DNA of 50,343 bases from a virus. The DNA lies in IMG/VR virus record IMGVR_UViG_3300035698_003909, positions 1-50,343 of that record. One strand, given 5' to 3'. Of the stretch, positions 1,885-40,897 are shown piece after piece (position 1 is the stretch's first letter; each line of letters opens with the position of its first letter). The notes beneath the pieces were generated by a model, which saw only the letters and a list, made by a program, of their open reading frames with translations, did not search any database and had not been told where the DNA came from. Made by a program: the position numbers and the translations under genes.

Positions 1885-2898
1885 GTGGAGACAGTGATAA
1901 ATCTCAACCTTGAGCGAAAGTCTTTCACAAAGAAGGACTTCAGAGATAGATGTTTTAAAGACTTTGAGTTCTTTTGCAAGAAACTGTTTCCTGATGCATT
2001 CTTCGTTGAGTTCAGTGATGCACACAGGGAAATATTCAAGCTCATTCTCAGCAATGAGATATATGCAGGCGTAATAGCACCACGTAAGTTGGGCAAAACA
2101 CCAACAATCTGCTTTGCTTACCCATTACGCCAAATACTGTTCAGTTTAGAATCGTACATTGTCATAGTAAGTGCAACCATTGAGGAAGCTGAACGCCATG
2201 TGGATAAAATAACTACCGTCATTGAGCAGTCGACAGCTATACACTACTACTTCGGAGAGTTGGTTGTCAAGAAGAAGTTTGAGACACAGAAAAAGAGTGT
2301 CCAGTTTGCCAATCGCATATGGTTACGCGCAAAAGGTCTTGGTTCACAAATCAGGGGAACAGGTGGTGATTGGTCGCCACCATCACTCATCGTTGTCGAT
2401 GATCCACAATCGAACAAAGACGTTAAGACAGAAACAAACTTAACAAATGCCAGCAACTGGTTTGATGATGAAGTCATATATTCGAAAGCAATGAAGTGGA
2501 GGCATAAGCTTGGACAGATCAAGGAAGGTAAGATCAGATTCTTAGGCACATCACTTCATCCACAATGTCTGGCTGAGAAACTGTACAAAGATTCAAGATT
2601 CAAGTTTTTACGATATTCGATACTTCAGGACGAAGATGGAAATCCTGACACAGTGAACGGCAAGTCAATTTGGGAAGCAATGTTCCCAACCGCTCGCTTG
2701 TACAAAGAGATGCAAGAAGCTGAACGTAATGGTAAACTTGGCAACTGGCTTCAAGAGCGAATGAACATGCCTTACAAATACGGTGAACGCATGTTTAACA
2801 TTGATGATTTGCAATATTGGGATGTTGGTGGGAACAAGTTTGACATTTATCAGGGTATGCCAGTGTTTGTGCAAGAACAAGACATAGGACTAAACTAA
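1885..2898 (+). CDS. Terminase large subunit, ATPase part
   Basis: This 337-residue protein acts as the DNA-packaging motor ATPase at the portal. The terminase-type Walker A is seen as APRKLGKT near residue 66, and Walker B as LIVVDDPQ near residue 170. A motif-III-like segment, FLGTSLHP, follows. The chain stops where a normal large terminase would enter its RNase H-like nuclease domain. That domain is a separate gene at 3191-3820. The start is uncertain: GTG 1885 gives the longest form, and GTG 1894 lies behind a GGTGGAG. No ATG is in frame nearby. Confidence 0.85.
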   Translation: METVINLNLERKSFTKKDFRDRCFKDFEFFCKKLFPDAFFVEFSDAHREIFKLILSNEIYAGVIAPRKLGKTPTICFAYPLRQILFSLESYIVIVSATIEEAERHVDKITTVIEQSTAIHYYFGELVVKKKFETQKKSVQFANRIWLRAKGLGSQIRGTGGDWSPPSLIVVDDPQSNKDVKTETNLTNASNWFDDEVIYSKAMKWRHKLGQIKEGKIRFLGTSLHPQCLAEKLYKDSRFKFLRYSILQDEDGNPDTVNGKSIWEAMFPTARLYKEMQEAERNGKLGNWLQERMNMPYKYGERMFNIDDLQYWDVGGNKFDIYQGMPVFVQEQDIGLN

Positions 2899-3194
2899 TG
2901 ACAAGAACAATTGACATATTATGTGGATCGTGTGATTATCTGTGGGAAGACACCATAGTTGGTGATGATTACGGTAAGTGTCCAATTTGCAATTCAGGCA
3001 ACATCAATCGCGTATTCACTCCCAACACTGTCCAATTCATAGCAACAAAGGCATCATGTGTAGATCATGTAATGAAGCACAATGCCAAGATAAAAGCCGA
3101 ACAGTTTGAAGAAGATTCATCTCCTGGTAGTGCTGCGTTGAAAGAGTTGGAAGATGTTACAGAATATGGAACATCTGATGTGGCGCAGGATTGA
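2898..3194 (+). CDS. Zinc-ribbon protein wedged between the terminase halves
   Basis: This 98-residue protein has a CGSCDYLWED... knuckle and a CPICNSGN knuckle about 25 residues apart, which is the layout of FmdB-like zinc ribbons, followed by an acidic Ser/Glu-rich tail. Its ATG shares the last base of the upstream TAA (TAATG). Its TGA is overlapped by the TTG start of the nuclease gene. Position between the packaging ATPase and nuclease suggests a role in assembling them or in DNA recognition, but this is inferred from neighbourhood only. Confidence 0.75.
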   Translation: MTRTIDILCGSCDYLWEDTIVGDDYGKCPICNSGNINRVFTPNTVQFIATKASCVDHVMKHNAKIKAEQFEEDSSPGSAALKELEDVTEYGTSDVAQD

Positions 3195-3820
3195 AGTATC
3201 ACCTGTTACGCACATACACTGCGATGGATTTAGCCGAATCAGACAGTGAGAAAGCAGATGATACAGCAATAGGAACAATCGGAATTACAAAGTCATCTGA
3301 CTACATCATGTTGGACAAATGGTCGAGTCGTGGTAGTGATCCGGTAGAAGCGATGATTGAGATGTTTAGGCAAATGAGAGTGTTTCAGTGCCATCGTGGG
3401 TTCATTGAGAAGAACAGATCAGAATCACTGTTACGAACAGTACGGAAGGTTGCACTAACAGACTTGTATGGTAAATACGATATAATAAGGCCACTAATAT
3501 CAAAACTTGTTATGATTTCACATTACACCACGTCAAAAATGGATCGGTTTGAACAGAACATATCACCGATAACACAGAGTAAGCGACTGTGGATGAAAGA
3601 TAATTGGAGTGACGTTAAGTCATTTTTCACGTTATATCCGGCAGTAGAGCATGATGATATGGGAGATGTCATTGATATGATTCTGGAACATGGCACACCA
3701 CCATCAGGAGACTTCATATCAAGAGTTGATACAGTAAACCCACGTGAGTATCAAGACACTGATGTCAATGCTCATTTCGCACGTAAGAAATACAATCCTT
3801 ACACAGGAGCTACAAGATGA
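3191..3820 (+). CDS. Terminase large subunit, RNase H-like nuclease part
   Basis: This 209-residue protein starts YHLLRTYTAMDLAES, a beta strand ending in the first acidic residue of the terminase nuclease fold. It continues with a second DDTAIGTIGI strand, as in terminase C-terminal nuclease domains, and a late HDDMGDVIDM segment supplies further acidic residues. The start must lie at or near TTG 3191: the next ATG (3224) would remove the first catalytic strand. TTG overlaps the preceding TGA in TTGA, so translation is probably coupled. A programmed frameshift from the zinc-ribbon gene is the alternative. Confidence 0.8.
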   Translation: MKYHLLRTYTAMDLAESDSEKADDTAIGTIGITKSSDYIMLDKWSSRGSDPVEAMIEMFRQMRVFQCHRGFIEKNRSESLLRTVRKVALTDLYGKYDIIRPLISKLVMISHYTTSKMDRFEQNISPITQSKRLWMKDNWSDVKSFFTLYPAVEHDDMGDVIDMILEHGTPPSGDFISRVDTVNPREYQDTDVNAHFARKKYNPYTGATR

Positions 3821-3981
3821 AAGTCCAGACGTTGCTTGAATGGGAAGATGAATTTCGTGATTTAAGCAAGAATTATCATCCGTATGCCTTAGTTCATAGA
3901 TGGACATCACAAGTCACAGCACGTGAGTATGTTAGGCTGCTCAGAACAAGTAATCAATTGTCACGCGGAGGTTTACGGTAA
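3817..3981 (+). CDS. Small 54-residue protein before portal
   Basis: ATG 3817 has AGGAG seven bases upstream. Its first bases overlap the preceding stop (ATGA) and its own TAA overlaps the portal start (TAATG). The sequence begins MKVQTLLEWEDEFRDLSKNY and ends in a basic SRGGLR tail, and no family is recognised. Tight coupling on both sides argues that it is translated. Its place between terminase and portal suggests a packaging accessory, without direct evidence. Confidence 0.7.
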   Translation: MKVQTLLEWEDEFRDLSKNYHPYALVHRWTSQVTAREYVRLLRTSNQLSRGGLR

Positions 3982-6062
3982 TGGCAGACATTAAAATAGT
4001 ACAATCTCTTGAGGAAGACTGGAAAGAATGTGAAAGTATAGTCAATGATCCCAGTCGCCGTGATCGTATGCAGGAGATGAAGGAAGAGAATAAGTTCTAT
4101 TTCAATGCTCAGTGGGATGGGGATGAGGAAGAAGAATTGAGTGAGACAGGGCAAGTGGACATTACTCTCAATGCCATGAGACGTGCATTCCGTACATTAA
4201 TAGCCCAGATTGTAGGACCACAACCAACTGCAAAGTTCATGCCGCGTGATGCCATCCCAGGAGACGAGCAAGAGAAAGCAATGCAAGAGCAGGTTCATAG
4301 TTTGCTTACTTCCTTACAAGGGCTGTGGAATCATTGCTGGTATATAAGTGATGGTACAATACGATTACGTCGAAGTGTGCAGTCTCAGATAATAACAGGA
4401 TTAGGATGGATAGGGATTGAACTTGATCCCAAACAGGACTACTTTCGTGGTGAGTTGGTGTTTAAAGACAAGTTACCATGGGAGATGGTTGTTCCATTGA
4501 ATGCAAGTGAGATTGATTTCAGTGATGCTCACAAGATGTGGTATCGTACACTTGTACCACTGGCCTCAGCAGCAAGACGATTGAAAGGTGATGCTGATCT
4601 TGTTACCAAACTTAGGACTCATGCATATGTAACTGGCATGGAAGAAGATTATGATATTTACATGCTCGCACCTGATGGTCGTGAAGTTTATAACGAGAAG
4701 ATCAAGAAGGAAGGTGACTACTATGATGAGAAGTCTAATATTGTCGTAGAGTGGTTTGAGATGGATGAGAAGGTCGATGTTGATGCTAAACTATTTAAGG
4801 CTCAGGATGAGAATGGATTCGTTGAAACTCTGGTATACATATCTGATGAGCAGAAGAAAGAGTTTGATCCGGAGAAGTTACTTATCGAAAAAGGCTACAA
4901 ATCAGAGAATCTTGAAAGTATTGATATCACAGTTCCACGTATCAAGCGGACAAAGTATGTTGGACGAGACATTCAGATTGAAGAACCGGAAATACTTCCA
5001 ATCAGCAAGTACCCGAATAAGCCAATCATTGACGAAGACACTTATAACCCACTTCCATATGGTGAAGCACATTTTGTCAAACCTGCCCAGAAATTATTAA
5101 ACAAGACATTTAGTCTGGCAACACTTCATCTTCAGACATCAGGTTCAGGTGATCGTCTGGTAGGCTTCAAAGGTGCATTTGGCGACACACCAACCGCAGT
5201 CGAGAACTTCCAGAAACATTTTGCACATCCGGCATCTGCAACAGAATTGGGTGTTGAGTGGGCAGAAGGATTGGAAGTTGGCAAGATGTTCCAGCGTATG
5301 CAAGCGACTCCATTACAACCCGCAGCTGTGCAGATCATACAGCTCCTTACAGGCTGGATAGATCGTTTGACAGGTATAGACCCTATGGCGTTTGGAAACA
5401 CGTCTGGTGGTGCTCCAAGGACGTTAGGAGCCACATTGTCGATCAAGGAGTGGGGAGACGAGAATGCACGTATACCGATCATGCACATGAGCAGCACACT
5501 ACAGAATCTCGGTGAGACATGGTTGGAATGGGCATTGATTCATTACCGTCACACTAAGTCATTCAGTGTGCCGGATCACAATCAGAAGCTGAATCAGTAT
5601 ACAATTAATACAGCAGACAATCAGGGTTACATACAGAACAATTTCGAAGGCTTGCGGGCTAACATATTCGTAACATCGGGTGCAACACTTATGCTTAACC
5701 GTTTCTCTCAGCTTCAGATGTTCAAAGAGCTTATCCCATTGAGTCCAGTATTTGCCAAGTTATTCTTACAATACAGTGATTTGCCAGACAAGTTTGATTT
5801 AATAGATGAAATCGATTATACAAAGCAATTAGAGGAACAAGCACAACAAATGGCTCAACAGCTTGAACAACTTCAGGGTCTTGCAGAAGGTCTTACAAAG
5901 AAGGTTCAGGAAGGTGAGCAGAAGATCGAACTAACCAAATTCAAAGGCGCATTAGATTCACTTCTTACTAAAATCCGTGAGCGATTGAATGCCACATTGA
6001 AGCAGCAACAGAAAGCTACAAGTGACTTCGAACAAGCTCAACGAAAGCAGCAAGAAGGTTAA
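3981..6062 (+). CDS. Portal protein (P22-like type)
   Basis: This 693-residue protein forms the dodecameric portal ring through which DNA is packaged and ejected. The N-terminal region has the arrangement typical of P22-type portals: a helical segment, then FYFNAQWDGD, then VDITLNAMRRAFRTLIAQIVG. The last 80 residues are a Gln/Glu-rich coiled coil that could form the internal barrel. ATG 3981 has GGAGG nine bases upstream and overlaps the previous stop. The size and position between terminase and scaffold support the call. Confidence 0.88.
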   Translation: MADIKIVQSLEEDWKECESIVNDPSRRDRMQEMKEENKFYFNAQWDGDEEEELSETGQVDITLNAMRRAFRTLIAQIVGPQPTAKFMPRDAIPGDEQEKAMQEQVHSLLTSLQGLWNHCWYISDGTIRLRRSVQSQIITGLGWIGIELDPKQDYFRGELVFKDKLPWEMVVPLNASEIDFSDAHKMWYRTLVPLASAARRLKGDADLVTKLRTHAYVTGMEEDYDIYMLAPDGREVYNEKIKKEGDYYDEKSNIVVEWFEMDEKVDVDAKLFKAQDENGFVETLVYISDEQKKEFDPEKLLIEKGYKSENLESIDITVPRIKRTKYVGRDIQIEEPEILPISKYPNKPIIDEDTYNPLPYGEAHFVKPAQKLLNKTFSLATLHLQTSGSGDRLVGFKGAFGDTPTAVENFQKHFAHPASATELGVEWAEGLEVGKMFQRMQATPLQPAAVQIIQLLTGWIDRLTGIDPMAFGNTSGGAPRTLGATLSIKEWGDENARIPIMHMSSTLQNLGETWLEWALIHYRHTKSFSVPDHNQKLNQYTINTADNQGYIQNNFEGLRANIFVTSGATLMLNRFSQLQMFKELIPLSPVFAKLFLQYSDLPDKFDLIDEIDYTKQLEEQAQQMAQQLEQLQGLAEGLTKKVQEGEQKIELTKFKGALDSLLTKIRERLNATLKQQQKATSDFEQAQRKQQEG

Positions 6063-6081
6063 ATGGCCGGAAAGGCAACAA

Positions 6082-7311
6082 ATGAATGAACGTGATGGTA
6101 GTGAACTGACAAGTGCAATTAGTGGCAAATCAACACCAGAAGGAGTAGGGAATACAGCACGTGGTGGATCAGCAACAGACGAGTATTTTATGGATGTTGC
6201 GGTTGAAGAGGAACCAACACGACAGGATCATGATAGACAGCTTAGGGATGAGCAGAACAGGAAGTCACAGATTGCAAAACAGAATAAGGGACGAGGACCA
6301 ATTGAGCCAGAAGCTGAAATAGCAACACCAGCAGCCAAGAAGGAACAACAAGATGACTTGCAAGGACAAGAAGAAGAAGCGGGAGAAGAAGAAGAAGCCC
6401 AAGAGCAAGTAGTGACAGATGATCAATCTGACGAAGGTGAAGTCATTGAAGTTGAAGAGACTGAATATGACTATCTAATGGGACTTGATGATGAGTCTAA
6501 GATTGCCTACGGATTGAAGCATAAGAAACAGCAGAAGGGGACACAACGCCGTTTGAGTAAGGTTGAGAATGTGGTTGGTAAGAAATTCATTGACCTTGCA
6601 GTGGAAGACAAGATTCCAAAAGAAGTTGGCATTGTTATCAACAACTTGTCTGATCAGGCATTCCAGGATCACATAGCTGGCTTTTATGACACACATGAAT
6701 TACGAGATGGAAGTTATATAAAAACTAAACAGGATGTCCCAAGTGCTGATGTGCTTACAAAGTATTCAGATCTTGAAATGAAGAGGGCCACAGTAAATGT
6801 GACTTCATTCATGGAAGGTGAAGATGAGTTTGATGCAACTGAAGCATATAAGAATCCTTACTCAAAATCAGGTATTGCACTTTCAAAGTTTGAAACAGAG
6901 AAGGTCAATATCGAAAACGAACTTCGTCAGATAAGAGAAGTTGCTGTTCAAGCATCAGACAACAGTAAGCCACAGGATCAGTCTGTTGCACAGCAGCAAC
7001 AATTTGACGAACTAACAGGTACTTATCCAGAATTAAAGGATGAGACAGCTTTAGCTGAATTTAAAGAGTTTATTGAAACCAATAGGCCGAAAGCACTTGA
7101 AGTGTTCTATCGGGCATTCAAGGCTACTGGCACTGTTAAGAAGAAGACCAAGAAGCTCATACTGCGGGAAATACAGACCATTTCCGATAACAAAGGAAAG
7201 GTAGTCCAACCTGCAAAGGCAAAAGCGCAACAACTGACAAAACAGAAGTACGATGATCCTGGCGTACAATCTGATGCCGAGTTTTTCGGTGACTATGCTC
7301 CTAATGATTAA
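6082..7311 (+). CDS. Putative capsid scaffolding protein
   Basis: This protein has 409 residues. The start is taken at ATG 6082 behind AAAGG; the longer reading from 6022 overlaps the portal gene and lacks a ribosome site. It is extremely acidic in the first third (runs of Glu with Gln and Asp), then has mixed coiled-coil segments and a Lys-rich C-terminus (VKKKTKKLILRE), which is the usual composition of scaffolds that bind capsid protein by a basic helix. It lies directly between portal and capsid genes. No protease motif is seen. Confidence 0.7.
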   Translation: MNERDGSELTSAISGKSTPEGVGNTARGGSATDEYFMDVAVEEEPTRQDHDRQLRDEQNRKSQIAKQNKGRGPIEPEAEIATPAAKKEQQDDLQGQEEEAGEEEEAQEQVVTDDQSDEGEVIEVEETEYDYLMGLDDESKIAYGLKHKKQQKGTQRRLSKVENVVGKKFIDLAVEDKIPKEVGIVINNLSDQAFQDHIAGFYDTHELRDGSYIKTKQDVPSADVLTKYSDLEMKRATVNVTSFMEGEDEFDATEAYKNPYSKSGIALSKFETEKVNIENELRQIREVAVQASDNSKPQDQSVAQQQQFDELTGTYPELKDETALAEFKEFIETNRPKALEVFYRAFKATGTVKKKTKKLILREIQTISDNKGKVVQPAKAKAQQLTKQKYDDPGVQSDAEFFGDYAPND

Positions 7312-30594: not shown

Positions 30595-31854
30595 TTACAA
30601 CTCTTCCATTTGTCCCCAATTAAGTCCTTGCTCTATATCACAAGGTATATCAACCTTCAGCTTCACCACGTTCTCCATCACCCCACGTATATCTTCAGCC
30701 ATCACACCCCACTCATGTTCATCCATCTCGAACAGCAACTCATCATGAATCTGCATCAATGTGTCACATACTAAACCTTCAGCTTTCCATTCAAGTGATC
30801 GGTCGTATGCTTGCTTAATTGCTATCTTCATGATCTGTGCTGCTGTTCCCTGGATAGGAGTGTTACCACCTTCTCTCACACCCTTCTCAACAATTCGCTT
30901 ATCTGCTGAGTGTACGTGTGGGATTGTACGCTGGTGATGATACATTGTCTTAACAATACCAGTACGTTTTATACTGTGTTGTACGGCTTCCATGTAACGT
31001 CCACAATCAGGCCATGTAGCAAACCAAGAGTTGATAAACATTTGACAATCATCCTCATCAAACATTGGTGTGCCATCATCATGTGTGAGTTTATTCTTAA
31101 TGAAGCCATCATATAGACCATGCTTAGTGATACCATACAGACATCCAAACTGCACATCTTTTGCTGGACGTCTGTGCTTCTTGGGTTCTACTTCATCAAG
31201 TTCAAGATTGAACATATCAGCAGCAAGCATTGCATGTAAGTCTTGACCATTGGCAAATGCATTGATCATCTTTTTATCATTAGCAAGATGTGCTACTACT
31301 CTCATTTCAATGCCTGAGTAATCGATGCTGACAAACACACACCCTGGCTTGGCAATGAACCCTTGTCTGATCATGCGTCCATTGGCTGTACGAGTGCTTA
31401 TATTCTGGAGGTTAGGATTCTTGCTTGCCAATCTCCCTGTTGCTGTACGTGTAATTAGGATGTCAGTATGCACACGATTATTCTCATCAGCCATCTTAGG
31501 CAGCTTGTTACAGAATTGACTGATCAGATGCTCATATTCCTTGACTTCAAACACCTTTTGTACGATTGGGTACTTACGGAACTTACTCAATGTCTCAGCA
31601 TCAGTACGTAGCTTCTTAGGGTAGATATTCATATCCATCAGCATCTTGCACAGCTTGCCATCTTCACCACCGGATCGTACATTGATACGTTGACCATATT
31701 CACTCTCGATCTCTGCCTGTACCTTATCAGCAGCGTCACGAAACTCTTGTGTGATAGTGTGAAAGTGATCCTGGTCAATCATTATGCCTGTCTCTTGCAT
31801 AGCAATAACTGCTGGTATGATGCTCATATCAATTGATAATGGATTTATTTGCAT
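30595..31854 (-). CDS. DNA polymerase, family A (polymerase domain only)
   Basis: This 419-residue protein starts at ATG 31854, behind GGAGAAA; a longer frame has no ribosome site. Family A motifs are clear. Motif A is VSIDYSGIEMRVVAHL. Motif B is RRPAKDVQFGCLYGITKHGL, giving the fingers Lys and Tyr. Motif C is MQIHDELLFE with the catalytic Asp. The TGRLASKNPNLQNI segment also fits. The 3'-5' exonuclease domain that normally precedes it is missing and is encoded separately at 32343-33794. It is the replicative polymerase candidate of the phage. Confidence 0.93.
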   Translation of the reverse strand: MQINPLSIDMSIIPAVIAMQETGIMIDQDHFHTITQEFRDAADKVQAEIESEYGQRINVRSGGEDGKLCKMLMDMNIYPKKLRTDAETLSKFRKYPIVQKVFEVKEYEHLISQFCNKLPKMADENNRVHTDILITRTATGRLASKNPNLQNISTRTANGRMIRQGFIAKPGCVFVSIDYSGIEMRVVAHLANDKKMINAFANGQDLHAMLAADMFNLELDEVEPKKHRRPAKDVQFGCLYGITKHGLYDGFIKNKLTHDDGTPMFDEDDCQMFINSWFATWPDCGRYMEAVQHSIKRTGIVKTMYHHQRTIPHVHSADKRIVEKGVREGGNTPIQGTAAQIMKIAIKQAYDRSLEWKAEGLVCDTLMQIHDELLFEMDEHEWGVMAEDIRGVMENVVKLKVDIPCDIEQGLNWGQMEEL

Positions 31855-32048
31855 AGTATTTCTCCGATGTATCTGAACAATTGCCTGCATCCAAATCCAA
31901 TTAGTATTGATAATATCCAGAAGTACATACCTGCAATCATATTCTTTTTTACCGATTTTGATCCCCATATGAATGAATAAGACACTACACTGAATGCGTA
32001 TGATAATAGTGCTCTTACTATTTGTTCTATCATATCAAGTGTTAACAT
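31845..32048 (-). CDS. Small two-span membrane protein inside the polymerase locus
   Basis: This is a 67-residue protein. ATG 32048 has AGGAG just upstream, and upstream TTG reading is not needed. Two hydrophobic spans (IVRALLSYAFSVVSYSFIWG and MIAGMYFWILSILIGFG) are separated by a basic turn (SKSVKKN). It overlaps the polymerase start by ten bases. No family is recognised. Its ribosome-binding region is itself formed from a decayed copy of the exonuclease gene end. Confidence 0.6.
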   Translation of the reverse strand: MLTLDMIEQIVRALLSYAFSVVSYSFIWGSKSVKKNMIAGMYFWILSILIGFGCRQLFRYIGEILCK

Positions 32049-32051
32049 ATA

Positions 32052-32097
32052 TCTCCTAACGGTTTGATCCAATCCGGCATAGGTATGCTCAGATAGA
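32052..32097 (-). repeat. Decayed duplicate of the exonuclease gene 3' end
   Basis: Read on the - strand, this spacer encodes SIPMPDWIKPLGDIC, matching SGIPYPDWIKPLEYI, the last residues of the protein at 32343-33794. Ten of thirteen aligned core residues are identical, while codons differ mostly at third positions. In both copies the segment ends in ATATG, whose ATG starts the next gene. The SemiSWEET gene lies exactly between the two copies, so this looks like a footprint of its insertion. Confidence 0.75.
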
Positions 32098-32346
32098 TTA
32101 CTTAAATTTTAACTTGGCAACTAACACAAACAGCGATAGTACCAACTCAAATGATGTTCCATATATTAGTGGATTGTTTCTTATTGCTATGCCATAGACT
32201 AACCACATTACCAGCCCAATATTAAATTGTACAATCCACCACTTTGATAAATCTGATGTTTGTGACGTTTTCCAACACTTTATCACCTGTGGTAGTAATG
32301 AAATATTTACTAATATAGTTGCTGTATACCCTAACAAGTCTGTCAT
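32098..32346 (-). CDS. SemiSWEET-family sugar transporter (PQ-loop)
   Basis: This is an 82-residue protein, the usual length for a bacterial SemiSWEET. It has three spans: LLGYTATILVNISLLPQVIK with the signature PQ, then WWIVQFNIGLVMWLVYGIAI, then SFELVLSLFVLVAKL. KTSQTSDLS links spans one and two as in the family. SemiSWEETs dimerise and pass sugars down a gradient across the inner membrane. The ATG overlaps the exonuclease stop (ATGA), so it is translated with replication genes. Finding one in a phage is unusual. Confidence 0.85.
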   Translation of the reverse strand: MTDLLGYTATILVNISLLPQVIKCWKTSQTSDLSKWWIVQFNIGLVMWLVYGIAIRNNPLIYGTSFELVLSLFVLVAKLKFK

Positions 32347-33794
32347 ATGTATTCTAATGGTTTAATCCAATCAGGATATGGAATCCCTGACTGAATGTAT
32401 AGTTTGTATAACTTATGAGCCACTTGTAATGTTGCATCTGCATCAGCACATGCATACTGCACGGCCTTATCAAGATCAATCATGCTGAGATCAGCACCCA
32501 ACCATTTACCTATTGCATTATCACACTGAATCAGTCTCTCATCAGCTTTCCACTTGTTGAGTGTCTTGACAGGATCACTACCACGCTTGAGAGCACCAGC
32601 CGCCATCTTGCCAATGTTCTGTGGTTGGCGCATGTAATCATGGCCATTTTCAGTGCCAGCCACAATCTTGTATCCATCAAACACTTTCTTGTCATAATAC
32701 CACTTACCATTCTTCTCATATGAACCTTTCTTGCGCTTGGTACATTCAGTCATATAATATGTGTACAAACGCTCTTTCTTAGGATCATTATTCCACGCAA
32801 GGAACGGTTCAGGATCAGGCCATTCCACATCTGCCATTGTCTCGAGGTACTCAATTGCCATCTTATCTTCCACATCCTTCACCACATCACGATATGATGT
32901 CTGCTCAATATCACATGACCGATATGATGCCACTTTCAATCCTTGTGCAATCTCAAGATGGTAGCTCATTATCATGCCATCAATCTCTAACACTGGAAAC
33001 ACACCACAATCTTCCAAACGTTTCTTATCAGCAAGAGCATTCCAATAAACAACAAGTGATGACTCCACACACTGTTTCCATTTGTGTATATCTTCAGGCC
33101 ATACTAAGAATGCTTTATGTGGTTCTGTACTTACTGTAAAACACCACGTAGAATCATCTACAAGCCACTCACAGTCAATTGCAATCACACCTGTGTTAAC
33201 TATTGGTTGATTAGTAAAGATGGCATACGAAGGCTCTGTGTGCTTCTTAGGATATATCTCACACTCACCCCACAACAACTCACCAAGCTGTTCAAAGTCA
33301 TACTTGATGTTTCTGATTCGTTCAGGCTGACGTAGCCCTGCTGCTGGATGGTAACATGGCATCACAATCACTTCTTGGTCACGGTCTTTATTCAATATGT
33401 GATTCCGTTCTAACCTGTGTGGGATGCCATGTGCCATCTCCATTGATTTATTTATGTCTAAACATCTGAGCGCAGTGACACCAAGTGCCACGATCACAAG
33501 TGATGACTCGCATTTGCTCAATCTATGTAAAGTATCAGCTTGTTGTTTGTCGAAGTTGGCAGCTAAGTATGTCTCTTTCATACGTGGATCGAGTGGTATC
33601 ATCCACTCAAAGACATTTTCAATACGACACATGTCACGAGTTATCTTAGCTGCTGGTAAGCAGTAGTGATCAAGTTCAGCACCAGATTTTCCTACGAATG
33701 GCTTACCATGTTTCAATTCTTCCACAGCTGGAGCTTCACCAAGCAGCACGATTGATGCATCAAGCGGTCCGTGTCCTCTGACGATTTTACTCAT
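32343..33794 (-). CDS. Uracil-DNA glycosylase domain fused to 3'-5' exonuclease domain
   Basis: This 483-residue protein has a family 4-type UDG over residues 1-170. VLLGEAPAVEELKHGKPFVG gives the first motif, IVALGVTAL the middle, and MPCYHPAAG the second motif with its His. Residues about 205-470 are a DnaQ-like exonuclease. VIAIDCEW is Exo I (Asp, Glu), NALADKKRL is Exo II, GMIMSYHLEIAQGLK matches the Pol I proofreading domain, and YACADADATLQV is Exo III. It would excise uracil and proofread for the separate polymerase gene. UDG-bearing Pol I relatives are known, but the split is uncommon. Confidence 0.85.
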   Translation of the reverse strand: MSKIVRGHGPLDASIVLLGEAPAVEELKHGKPFVGKSGAELDHYCLPAAKITRDMCRIENVFEWMIPLDPRMKETYLAANFDKQQADTLHRLSKCESSLVIVALGVTALRCLDINKSMEMAHGIPHRLERNHILNKDRDQEVIVMPCYHPAAGLRQPERIRNIKYDFEQLGELLWGECEIYPKKHTEPSYAIFTNQPIVNTGVIAIDCEWLVDDSTWCFTVSTEPHKAFLVWPEDIHKWKQCVESSLVVYWNALADKKRLEDCGVFPVLEIDGMIMSYHLEIAQGLKVASYRSCDIEQTSYRDVVKDVEDKMAIEYLETMADVEWPDPEPFLAWNNDPKKERLYTYYMTECTKRKKGSYEKNGKWYYDKKVFDGYKIVAGTENGHDYMRQPQNIGKMAAGALKRGSDPVKTLNKWKADERLIQCDNAIGKWLGADLSMIDLDKAVQYACADADATLQVAHKLYKLYIQSGIPYPDWIKPLEYI

Positions 33795-34281: not shown

Positions 34282-35616
34282 TTACTTGTTGTGAATCTCA
34301 CCTTCTTCAATCACAATACCCATCTTGTCGGCAGTATCATAATCAGGAACAAGACAGTCTTTCTCATCATCCCAACGTTCACCAATGACGAGTTCGAATA
34401 TGGTCTGTACACCTGCTTTATCACACATATCACGTATCTTGGCACGAGTGTTGGTGTCAGCTTGGGAGCCATTCTCAACCATAAGCAACTTCAGTGAGTC
34501 GATCTCTGTGCCATCTTCCATAGTCACAGTCTGATTGGATAACTTGTTGATGAGTATCTGAGCACCAAGCAGCATACGTGCGCCTTCATTGATCTGTTGG
34601 ATAGGCACACTCTTGTATGTAAGCACACCATCATCATCAACATTCACATGTTCAACAGGACATTCATTGTCAGTAAACAAAGCACGTTTCTTGGCAGGGA
34701 TTGCTTTCACCTGGGCATCAAGATCAGCATGAGCCATTTTCTGATTCTTGGCATCCGCAACATACTCATCGTATCGGATATAGGCTTCAGCAGCAGAGTT
34801 TGTGTTAGCAGCATCTGATAGTTGTGCTACAAGTGTGTCAACAGTGTTAGCAGAATCTTCATACTCTTCATATTTGTTATAATGACCTTCTGCCTCGATC
34901 TCAAGCTGTCTGATCTCTTTCTTCATCTGTGCAATGAGTGCTTCTTTCTTACTGATGTTGTCTTGGCAGTAATTCCACTCACTGTAATGGTGATCATAGT
35001 TATGTTTGGCATCCTGAGCAATTTTCAGCTTATCATTGATCTCATCCACATTTACAGCTTCAACTTTCTCAGGACGTGTGACTGGAACTTGTGCAATAGC
35101 CTTGTCCTTATCCCGACCAGCATCTCGGCGTTCATCACGTAGCTTGCTATCAAGTCTGTCAAGCTCATTAAGCTGCGACTTGATGCCCATCATATCCAAC
35201 ACATCTGCCAACCATTCATCAACCTTACGACGTTTCAGTTCAGCCACATCCAGCTTAGTAGCTTGCGGCCATAGCATCTTGAGCAGCATTGCGTTTGTCA
35301 TACCTTCTGGTGGATCAGGTTCGATGCTGAGTGCATTGCGTCCATTAGCACGATACATACGGCTGATCTTGAGCACAGTTGTCTTGCCATCTATGGTAAA
35401 CTCATGCTCATACTCAGCAGTTGTAGCACCACGTTTGTTGTTGATGGGTTGTGGTATCTCACGTGAGTCAATCTTGTTGAATGTGTCGATGACTGTTTCC
35501 AATAGTGCAGTCTTGCCAGCTTCATTCTCACCAATAAGATTGTTGTGATCGACCCAATCAACAGTGATGTCTCCTAAACCTTTCCAGTCTCTTGCGGTTG
35601 TTCGTAGTATAAACAT
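34282..35616 (-). CDS. SMC/RecF/SbcC-like ATPase
   Basis: This 444-residue protein has AGGAGGACACACA before the ATG. The N-terminal ABC-type P-loop is LIGENEAGKTALLE near residues 27-40. The middle holds a coiled coil (KKEALIAQMKKEIRQLEIEA) interrupted at a short hinge, and the C-terminal lobe has LLGAQILINKL, then SLKLLMVENGSQADT in the Walker B region. It is much shorter than SbcC or SMC and lacks a matching SbcD-like nuclease gene in the window. It is likely a DNA-end or recombination ATPase of the replication module. Confidence 0.8.
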   Translation of the reverse strand: MFILRTTARDWKGLGDITVDWVDHNNLIGENEAGKTALLETVIDTFNKIDSREIPQPINNKRGATTAEYEHEFTIDGKTTVLKISRMYRANGRNALSIEPDPPEGMTNAMLLKMLWPQATKLDVAELKRRKVDEWLADVLDMMGIKSQLNELDRLDSKLRDERRDAGRDKDKAIAQVPVTRPEKVEAVNVDEINDKLKIAQDAKHNYDHHYSEWNYCQDNISKKEALIAQMKKEIRQLEIEAEGHYNKYEEYEDSANTVDTLVAQLSDAANTNSAAEAYIRYDEYVADAKNQKMAHADLDAQVKAIPAKKRALFTDNECPVEHVNVDDDGVLTYKSVPIQQINEGARMLLGAQILINKLSNQTVTMEDGTEIDSLKLLMVENGSQADTNTRAKIRDMCDKAGVQTIFELVIGERWDDEKDCLVPDYDTADKMGIVIEEGEIHNK

Positions 35617-35637
35617 TGTGTGTCCTCCTGATTAGTG

Positions 35638-37381: not shown

Positions 37382-38155
37382 TTACTCCTCCAATGTGTGA
37401 TTATAGTCATCAGGATCACCTCCAAAGTGATCCGCCCATACCTGTGGCAACCCACCTTCCAGACACATCCCACCATCAAACTCATTCAGCATATATCCCG
37501 TCTTGAGTTTACCACGACCATCAAACACATACTGCATACGATACTCAACACTGGTGCTGACAAGTGATTCCTTCTCAACAACAGTCCATAGGAACAATTC
37601 CATCTCAACACGGTTTTCCATCTTGTTGTAGCTGTCCCGATAGAAGTCACCTGTGGGTTTGTTATCAGCAAATTCAGGTCGTACTTCATGGATGAATATC
37701 AGATTCTTATCAGAATTAAATGCTGCACGGATTAAGTCATCAAAATATGAATATGTATCTTTCCACTTGAATGCTGCTGTTGGTGGTATAGCGAGTGTGC
37801 CAAGATCAGCAATCTTTTTAGTTTTGATGAAATCTGTCATAGTGTCTATCACAATTGATTTGATACCATCAGTTTTGAGAAGTTCGTAATAATCATCCTT
37901 GAACTGATCTGATATTGTGATACAATCATCCTGGTTGTCCGTGTTAGTGTCTGATGATACATATTTACGTTTGTATATCTCAACCTGTGGAAACTTCTCA
38001 ATAACTCCACGATCACGTATGTTGAAGTCACAGTAAGCTATGGGTGGTGGTGCAGTCAAAGCTACTGATGTCTTACCAGCTTTACCAATACCTGATATGC
38101 TGATTATGAGATTGTCAGATGCCTTTGAGTCAGGTCTTGTGAATCCGTCTATCAT
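37382..38155 (-). CDS. Sak4-like RecA-fold ATPase (single-strand annealing/recombination)
   Basis: This 257-residue protein has Walker A GIGKAGKTS at residues 22-30 and Walker B SIVIDTMTDF near 100-110, with the compact size of phage Sak4/AAA_24 recombinases. These promote annealing of single-stranded DNA with a phage SSB. It is followed by the ERCC4 nuclease and SMC-like ATPase genes, which form a recombination set. The ATG lies two codons after the previous stop region. Confidence 0.8.
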   Translation of the reverse strand: MIDGFTRPDSKASDNLIISISGIGKAGKTSVALTAPPPIAYCDFNIRDRGVIEKFPQVEIYKRKYVSSDTNTDNQDDCITISDQFKDDYYELLKTDGIKSIVIDTMTDFIKTKKIADLGTLAIPPTAAFKWKDTYSYFDDLIRAAFNSDKNLIFIHEVRPEFADNKPTGDFYRDSYNKMENRVEMELFLWTVVEKESLVSTSVEYRMQYVFDGRGKLKTGYMLNEFDGGMCLEGGLPQVWADHFGGDPDDYNHTLEE

Positions 38156-40557: not shown

Positions 40558-40868
40558 TATGCCTCCTGTTCTAATTTATACATTTTGATTAATTGTTTGC
40601 GTAATGTGTCAAAGTTCTCTGTCGATTCTTTACATGCACATATCCAAGACCAGTACCTGACTTGATCATTACTATTTAAATTCTTTTTATTCTGTTTATA
40701 AACATGATTATTTATATAGCAACCATTTAATTCTTCAATATTGCATGGTTCCATACTGTATACATGACACTCATCCCTCCATCTATCACACCATTCAAGA
40801 AACTCCTGTGGTGTGACTTTGCAGTTTTTCATAATAGCATCAAGCAGATGCTTGTTCAGTCTTAACAT
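40557..40868 (-). CDS. Unknown Cys-containing protein (103 residues)
   Basis: ATG 40868 has AGGAGG eight bases upstream, so the longer frame from 40931, which crosses hairpin 3, is rejected. The protein is helical with dispersed Cys (EFLEWCDRWRDECHVYSMEPC and SWICACKES), which could bind metal. It is the first gene downstream of hairpin 3. The function is unknown. Confidence 0.6.
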   Translation of the reverse strand: MLRLNKHLLDAIMKNCKVTPQEFLEWCDRWRDECHVYSMEPCNIEELNGCYINNHVYKQNKKNLNSNDQVRYWSWICACKESTENFDTLRKQLIKMYKLEQEA

Positions 40869-40897
40869 TTTGTGTCCTCCTAACATGTTAAATATTG

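Follow-up and report, generated by a model that had tools for sequence, protein, structure and literature searches.

A duplicated exonuclease gene tail around a SemiSWEET-like gene as a probable footprint of gene gain at an overlap in a virus genome

In a virus record of 50,343 bases, analyzed over its full length and called the window here, a small gene encoding a SemiSWEET-like protein lies between two diverged copies of the 3' end of a UDG-exonuclease gene. This arrangement is probably the product of gene gain at a translationally overlapped junction by short-homology or illegitimate recombination, after which both copies of the overlap were kept. What is observed is two copies of the tail, a codon-position bias in the differences between them, overlapping gene starts and, in a distant clade, the site both with and without cargo.

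The four genes of the locus all lie on the - strand, in the order UDG-exonuclease, SemiSWEET-like gene, DUF7220-like gene and PolA polymerase (Table 1). The match that gives the third gene its name reached 18.7 bits against a Pfam gathering cut-off of 28 and is below threshold. GC content is 32-33% in the two small genes vs 42% in their neighbors. This AT-richness suggests that both are perhaps late arrivals; alternatively, the codons of membrane proteins may be the source of the bias.

Table 1. Features of the exonuclease-polymerase locus and of a possible recombination helper in the window.
Feature	Position	Strand	Basis or remark
UDG-exonuclease gene, 483 aa	32343..33794	-	Pfam UDG 5.6e-15, weak DNA_pol_A_exo1; PHROG 17 DNA polymerase 8.9e-8
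Tail copy 1, codons IQSGIPYPDWIKPLEYI	32346..32396	-	Exonuclease 3' end; overlaps SemiSWEET start (ATATGA)
Predicted 12-bp hairpin in copy 1	32365..32396	-	Folding; -13.2 kcal/mol for 32 nt
SemiSWEET-like gene, 82 aa, GC 33%	32098..32346	-	Pfam PQ-loop 1e-8, MtN3_slv 3.5e-6; PDB SemiSWEET 4qnc 1.6e-12
Tail copy 2, codons IYLSIPMPDWIKPLGDI	32048..32098	-	Directly after SemiSWEET; outside any present exonuclease gene
Predicted hairpin in copy 2	32067..32098	-	Folding; -10.1 kcal/mol
AGGAG within copy 2, likely Shine-Dalgarno of DUF7220-like gene	32053..32057	-	Sequence
DUF7220-like small hydrophobic protein, 67 aa, GC 32%	31845..32048	-	Pfam DUF7220 E=0.0022, sub-cut-off
PolA polymerase domain gene	30595..31854	-	Pfam DNA_pol_A 5.4e-97; fused to UDG-exonuclease in many relatives
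Sak4-like ssDNA-annealing ATPase	37382..38155	-	PHROG 124 E=3.9e-4 (weak); Pfam AAA_24 9.5e-6

The exonuclease tail was found to be duplicated around the SemiSWEET-like gene where the original prediction had placed it, and each copy leads into the start of the next gene, as had also been claimed. Copy 1 is the 17-codon end of the UDG-exonuclease gene, whose stop codon (TGA, 32345-32343) overlaps the ATG of the SemiSWEET-like gene (32346). Copy 2 continues with TGT TAA and overlaps the ATG (32048) of the DUF7220-like gene, into whose start it runs as ATATGTTAA. Local alignment of the copies extends over 42 nt with a score of 42, compared with 19.9±2.8 (maximum 36) for shuffled sequences (n=2000), and the tail peptides align with a score of 57, compared with a shuffle maximum of 32. 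When up to three mismatches were allowed, the core pattern GATTGGATYAAACCRTTAG matched the window twice, at the two tail copies, where 0.06 matches are expected. The UDG-exonuclease gene also had the strongest downstream repeat of its own tail among the window genes tested (z=8.1; the next reached 4.6), and the duplication is unique in the window.

The two copies are about 63% identical over 51 nt. Their 19 differences are distributed 5/3/11 over the codon positions, and the third-position excess (Fisher p=0.005) indicates that the tails diverged largely while coding. This is the pattern given by the tails of two genes that diverged as coding sequence, and not by a spare copy decaying after an insertion. 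Copy 2 has AGGAG 4 nt ahead of the ATG of the DUF7220-like gene, where the equivalent in copy 1 is AGAAT, so that copy 2 resembles debris less than it does an initiation region for the next gene. The description of the second copy as decayed is therefore doubtful.

Gene gain at the overlap would have begun from an ancestor in which the 3' end of the exonuclease gene, besides encoding the C-terminus, carried the signals for initiating the next gene, a ribosome-binding site and a start codon. Recombination between diverged but related phages, probably by a short-homology or illegitimate route, would then have set the SemiSWEET-like gene between the two. Its product would be an exonuclease with tail 1, followed by the SemiSWEET-like gene joined to a diverged tail 2, the DUF7220-like gene and the polymerase. 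The Sak4-like protein, itself a weak match, is a possible helper of short-homology recombination. Entry into an overlap would be free of damage only if the shared segment ended up on both sides of the new gene. Tail 1 would now end the exonuclease and start the SemiSWEET-like gene, and tail 2 would initiate the DUF7220-like gene; with a separate gene depending on each, neither copy would be lost. Either the SemiSWEET-like gene or the DUF7220-like block may have arrived last. We infer three parts of this account: how the recombination took place, in which order the genes arrived, and that copy 2 is used in translation.

Filled and empty sites are found in a distant clade of the split type, in which the exonucleases are 81-100% identical to one another and ~25% identical to that of the window. 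In L105 and L106, which are identical in the region and perhaps one phage, a gene for a 114-aa HTH protein lies between two copies of the overlap of exonuclease tail and next-gene start, flanked by ATGACTGGAAC. The exonuclease ends in ..GAGTATGACTGGAACGCGCGGTAG, and the frame of the HTH gene opens at an ATG within that tail. After the HTH gene comes ..CAATGACTGGAACAACCGATGACATAG, with which the gene that also follows in relatives without the cargo begins. These cargo-free relatives (L109/L164, L110, L112/L168, L117, L118/L163, L120, L165 and L166) have a single copy or a variant of it, and their next gene (MTGTTD.. or related sequence) begins within the exonuclease tail but in a different frame. 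The exonuclease ends in GAGTATGACTGGAACAACCGATGA or a close variant in L164, L120, L165, L163 and L168 (..CGATAG in L168); the arrangement is the same in L110, L117 and L166, with slightly different last codons. The 11-base ATGACTGGAAC has two occurrences in the whole 65.9-kb cargo genome and one in a cargo-free genome; a second cargo-free genome lacks it and spells the tail as GACTGGAAT. A second clean case is a DUF7694 cargo gene that lies between copies of the leader AAGGAGAACCAATCA in L120, where L164 has a single copy. In the window and in relatives (the L105/L106 and L120 cases), a shared short sequence thus brackets the cargo gene.

A further candidate in this clade, junction B, where a 70-aa gene has GGTTAGTGACTAACATGG on either side, was set aside because its repeat contains a 13-bp palindrome that is dispersed through the clade genomes (24-36 per genome). 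This palindrome, GTTAGTSACTAAC, was counted 36, 24 and 26 times in L106, L112 and L113 (G001-G003), with 0 for a reversed-pattern control. Its sites occur inside genes and at junctions and look like a dispersed operator or stoperator-type site. Among 13 indels compared in the clade, 7 or 8 are without a long flanking repeat: 7 have a flanking repeat of at most 6 bases, and 1 (L168) shares 11 bases of the palindrome. For this reason, the flanking-repeat pattern is recurrent but not universal.

The locus is variable across more distant relatives. UDG, exonuclease and PolA form one ORF in many of them and are split in others; the window polymerase takes no firm place in the polymerase tree, and the split may have arisen once or several times. 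Between the split exonuclease and polymerase genes, relatives carry 0-3 kb of other genes, which makes this stretch a frequent site of insertion. In other split loci, repeats of the tail within the gap scored no higher than the largest shuffles. Some split exonucleases end in a similar short motif (VPQERW, VPVEDW or VREYDW vs IPYPDW in the window). Near relatives of the window phage were found neither by blastn in phages, nor by scans of viral contigs with the exonuclease, polymerase and SemiSWEET peptides, nor with the polymerase motif pattern K.VQFG.LYG. The tail pattern PDWIKPL gave two matches that were judged to be chance, and a scan of genome contigs matched bacterial and archaeal contigs only over the UDG part at the N-terminus of the query. 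Because these searches yielded no near relative without the SemiSWEET-like gene, the uninterrupted ancestral site has not been seen for the window phage itself.

Several claims of the original prediction can be weighed against these comparisons. The proposed check for other cargo flanked by copies of an exonuclease tail led to the HTH gene of L105/L106. The comparison of relatives with and without cargo succeeded in this distant clade and found no near relative. Insertion of the transporter is supported as far as the footprint at the exonuclease 3' end is concerned; as the newcomer, the SemiSWEET-like gene has a rival candidate in the block of tail 2 and the DUF7220-like gene. A replacement tail brought in with the cargo gains support from the same distant clade, where the left copy in L105/L106 has a changed end (GCGCGGTAG for AACCGATGA). 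The old tail had been regarded as a leader left behind by an insertion that protected the enzyme. The AGGAG and ATG in copy 2 agree with the leader; protection of the exonuclease is not the sole likely reason, since the older tail was probably also kept for its role in starting the next gene. It is conceivable, and is put forward only tentatively, that the overlap of exonuclease end and next-gene start is a recurrent plug-in slot, in which cargo such as a sugar transporter brings a replacement tail and leaves the enzyme and the downstream start intact.

A different origin for the repeat would be a conserved RNA element, a hairpin with a leader that controls downstream translation and was copied to a second gene, with the likeness of the peptides as a by-product. 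The original prediction had named such an element as one case against insertion, and the alternative, although unlikely, stays alive because both copies form a predicted hairpin. The hairpins lie 19-50 nt before the next ATG and share their outer five pairs. In a post hoc test on two sequences, 99.6% of synonymous recodings, and 99.5% of variants with random substitutions in the same left-arm positions, folded less stably than copy 2 itself (p about 0.005), a stability that recombination alone does not predict. The hairpin of copy 1 was unremarkable given its peptide (p=0.12). Against the element, a covariance model run on the window and on 43 related loci found no third copy, so a dispersed RNA element was rejected. 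The repeat had no Rfam family match at gathering score, and the window yielded two tRNAs only. Pair-by-pair counts showed covariation no greater than in shuffles, and the third-position bias speaks for coding constraint. A translational operator is possible and could coexist with the insertion. The two tRNA genes lie at 593-740, near the left end of the window.

Mobile elements offer an improbable account of the same junction. A homing endonuclease or mobile element, now absent, would have cut it, and repair with the DNA of another phage would have left two tails by co-conversion. The locus does carry mobile elements in relatives: HNH endonuclease genes lie in the exonuclease-polymerase gap of L129 (HNH_3 2.1e-11) and L108 (6.3e-5), another HNH endonuclease ORF lies inside the UDG region of a fused polymerase gene (L020, 2371-2814), and the polymerase of L049 has intein splicing and LAGLIDADG domains within a single UDG-exonuclease-polymerase frame of 1405 aa (2615-6829). 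However, no endonuclease or transposase gene was found in this interval of the window or in the L106 cargo, an HTH protein whose matches were all sub-threshold. The SemiSWEET-like gene alone lies between the window copies, with no transposase, recombinase or endonuclease.

The locus could also be read as two units in tandem, each a tail with a small hydrophobic gene, that arose by duplication within one genome before the small genes diverged. This is very unlikely, since the SemiSWEET-like and DUF7220-like proteins have no similarity when compared and were ruled out as paralogues, and since the codon-position bias indicates that the copies diverged mainly while coding and not after one became spare. 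Chance similarity, for which the modest identity of the copies could be cited, is hardly credible given an alignment score above all 2000 shuffles and the best among the window genes tested.

Other features were observed elsewhere in the window. At 1885-3820 (+ strand), the match to the terminase large subunit is limited to the first gene (1885-2898); this gene is followed by two ORFs, one of 98 aa that has paired cysteines (CGSC, CPIC) and then one of 209 aa, neither of them matched in Pfam. Because the match is confined to the first gene and two unmatched ORFs follow, the terminase is perhaps split by an inserted gene. Furthermore, two genes have in common a 24-nt start leader, AGGAGGACACAMAATGTT.. 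(35606-35629 and 40858-40881; 88% identical).

Stop and start codons of neighboring phage genes commonly overlap, and gene gain at an overlap bears on how a tightly packed operon can take up a new gene with neither of the two neighbors being broken. The window and the L106 clade suggest a readable scar: two copies of the overlap, with its two jobs shared out one to each copy. Such scars can be searched for systematically, which would allow gene gains to be counted and dated. A limited literature search found no description of overlap duplication as a scar of gene gain. The analysis also marks the SemiSWEET-like transporter as likely phage cargo; the protein had no tblastn match among 50,697 phage records.

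Several known systems resemble parts of this arrangement. The SemiSWEET-like protein (82 aa) is similar over its full length to SemiSWEET sugar transporters of solved structure (PDB 4qnc, 5uhs, 4rng, 4x5m) and has the PQ motif; unlike those, its gene lies in a phage replication operon and encodes GT (LIYGTSF) where 4qnc has AN (IILANVV). Phage polymerase loci also host free-standing homing endonucleases and inteins, and in relatives this same locus is a recurrent insertion target, whereas the cargo here is SemiSWEET-like and nuclease-free. In cluster K mycobacteriophages, start-associated sequences are repeated leaders before many genes (PMC3203893). They too have a Shine-Dalgarno-like core and lie immediately ahead of start codons, but here there are only two copies, derived from a gene tail. 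Models of phage mosaicism invoke either recombination at short conserved boundary sequences or illegitimate recombination followed by selection (PMC3233612). As in boundary-sequence mosaicism, a short shared sequence flanks the gained gene, and empty and filled relatives exist in the distant clade; in contrast, the window copies are diverged and not identical. The present case fits the boundary-sequence model with a twist, in that the boundary is an overlap that both codes and initiates.
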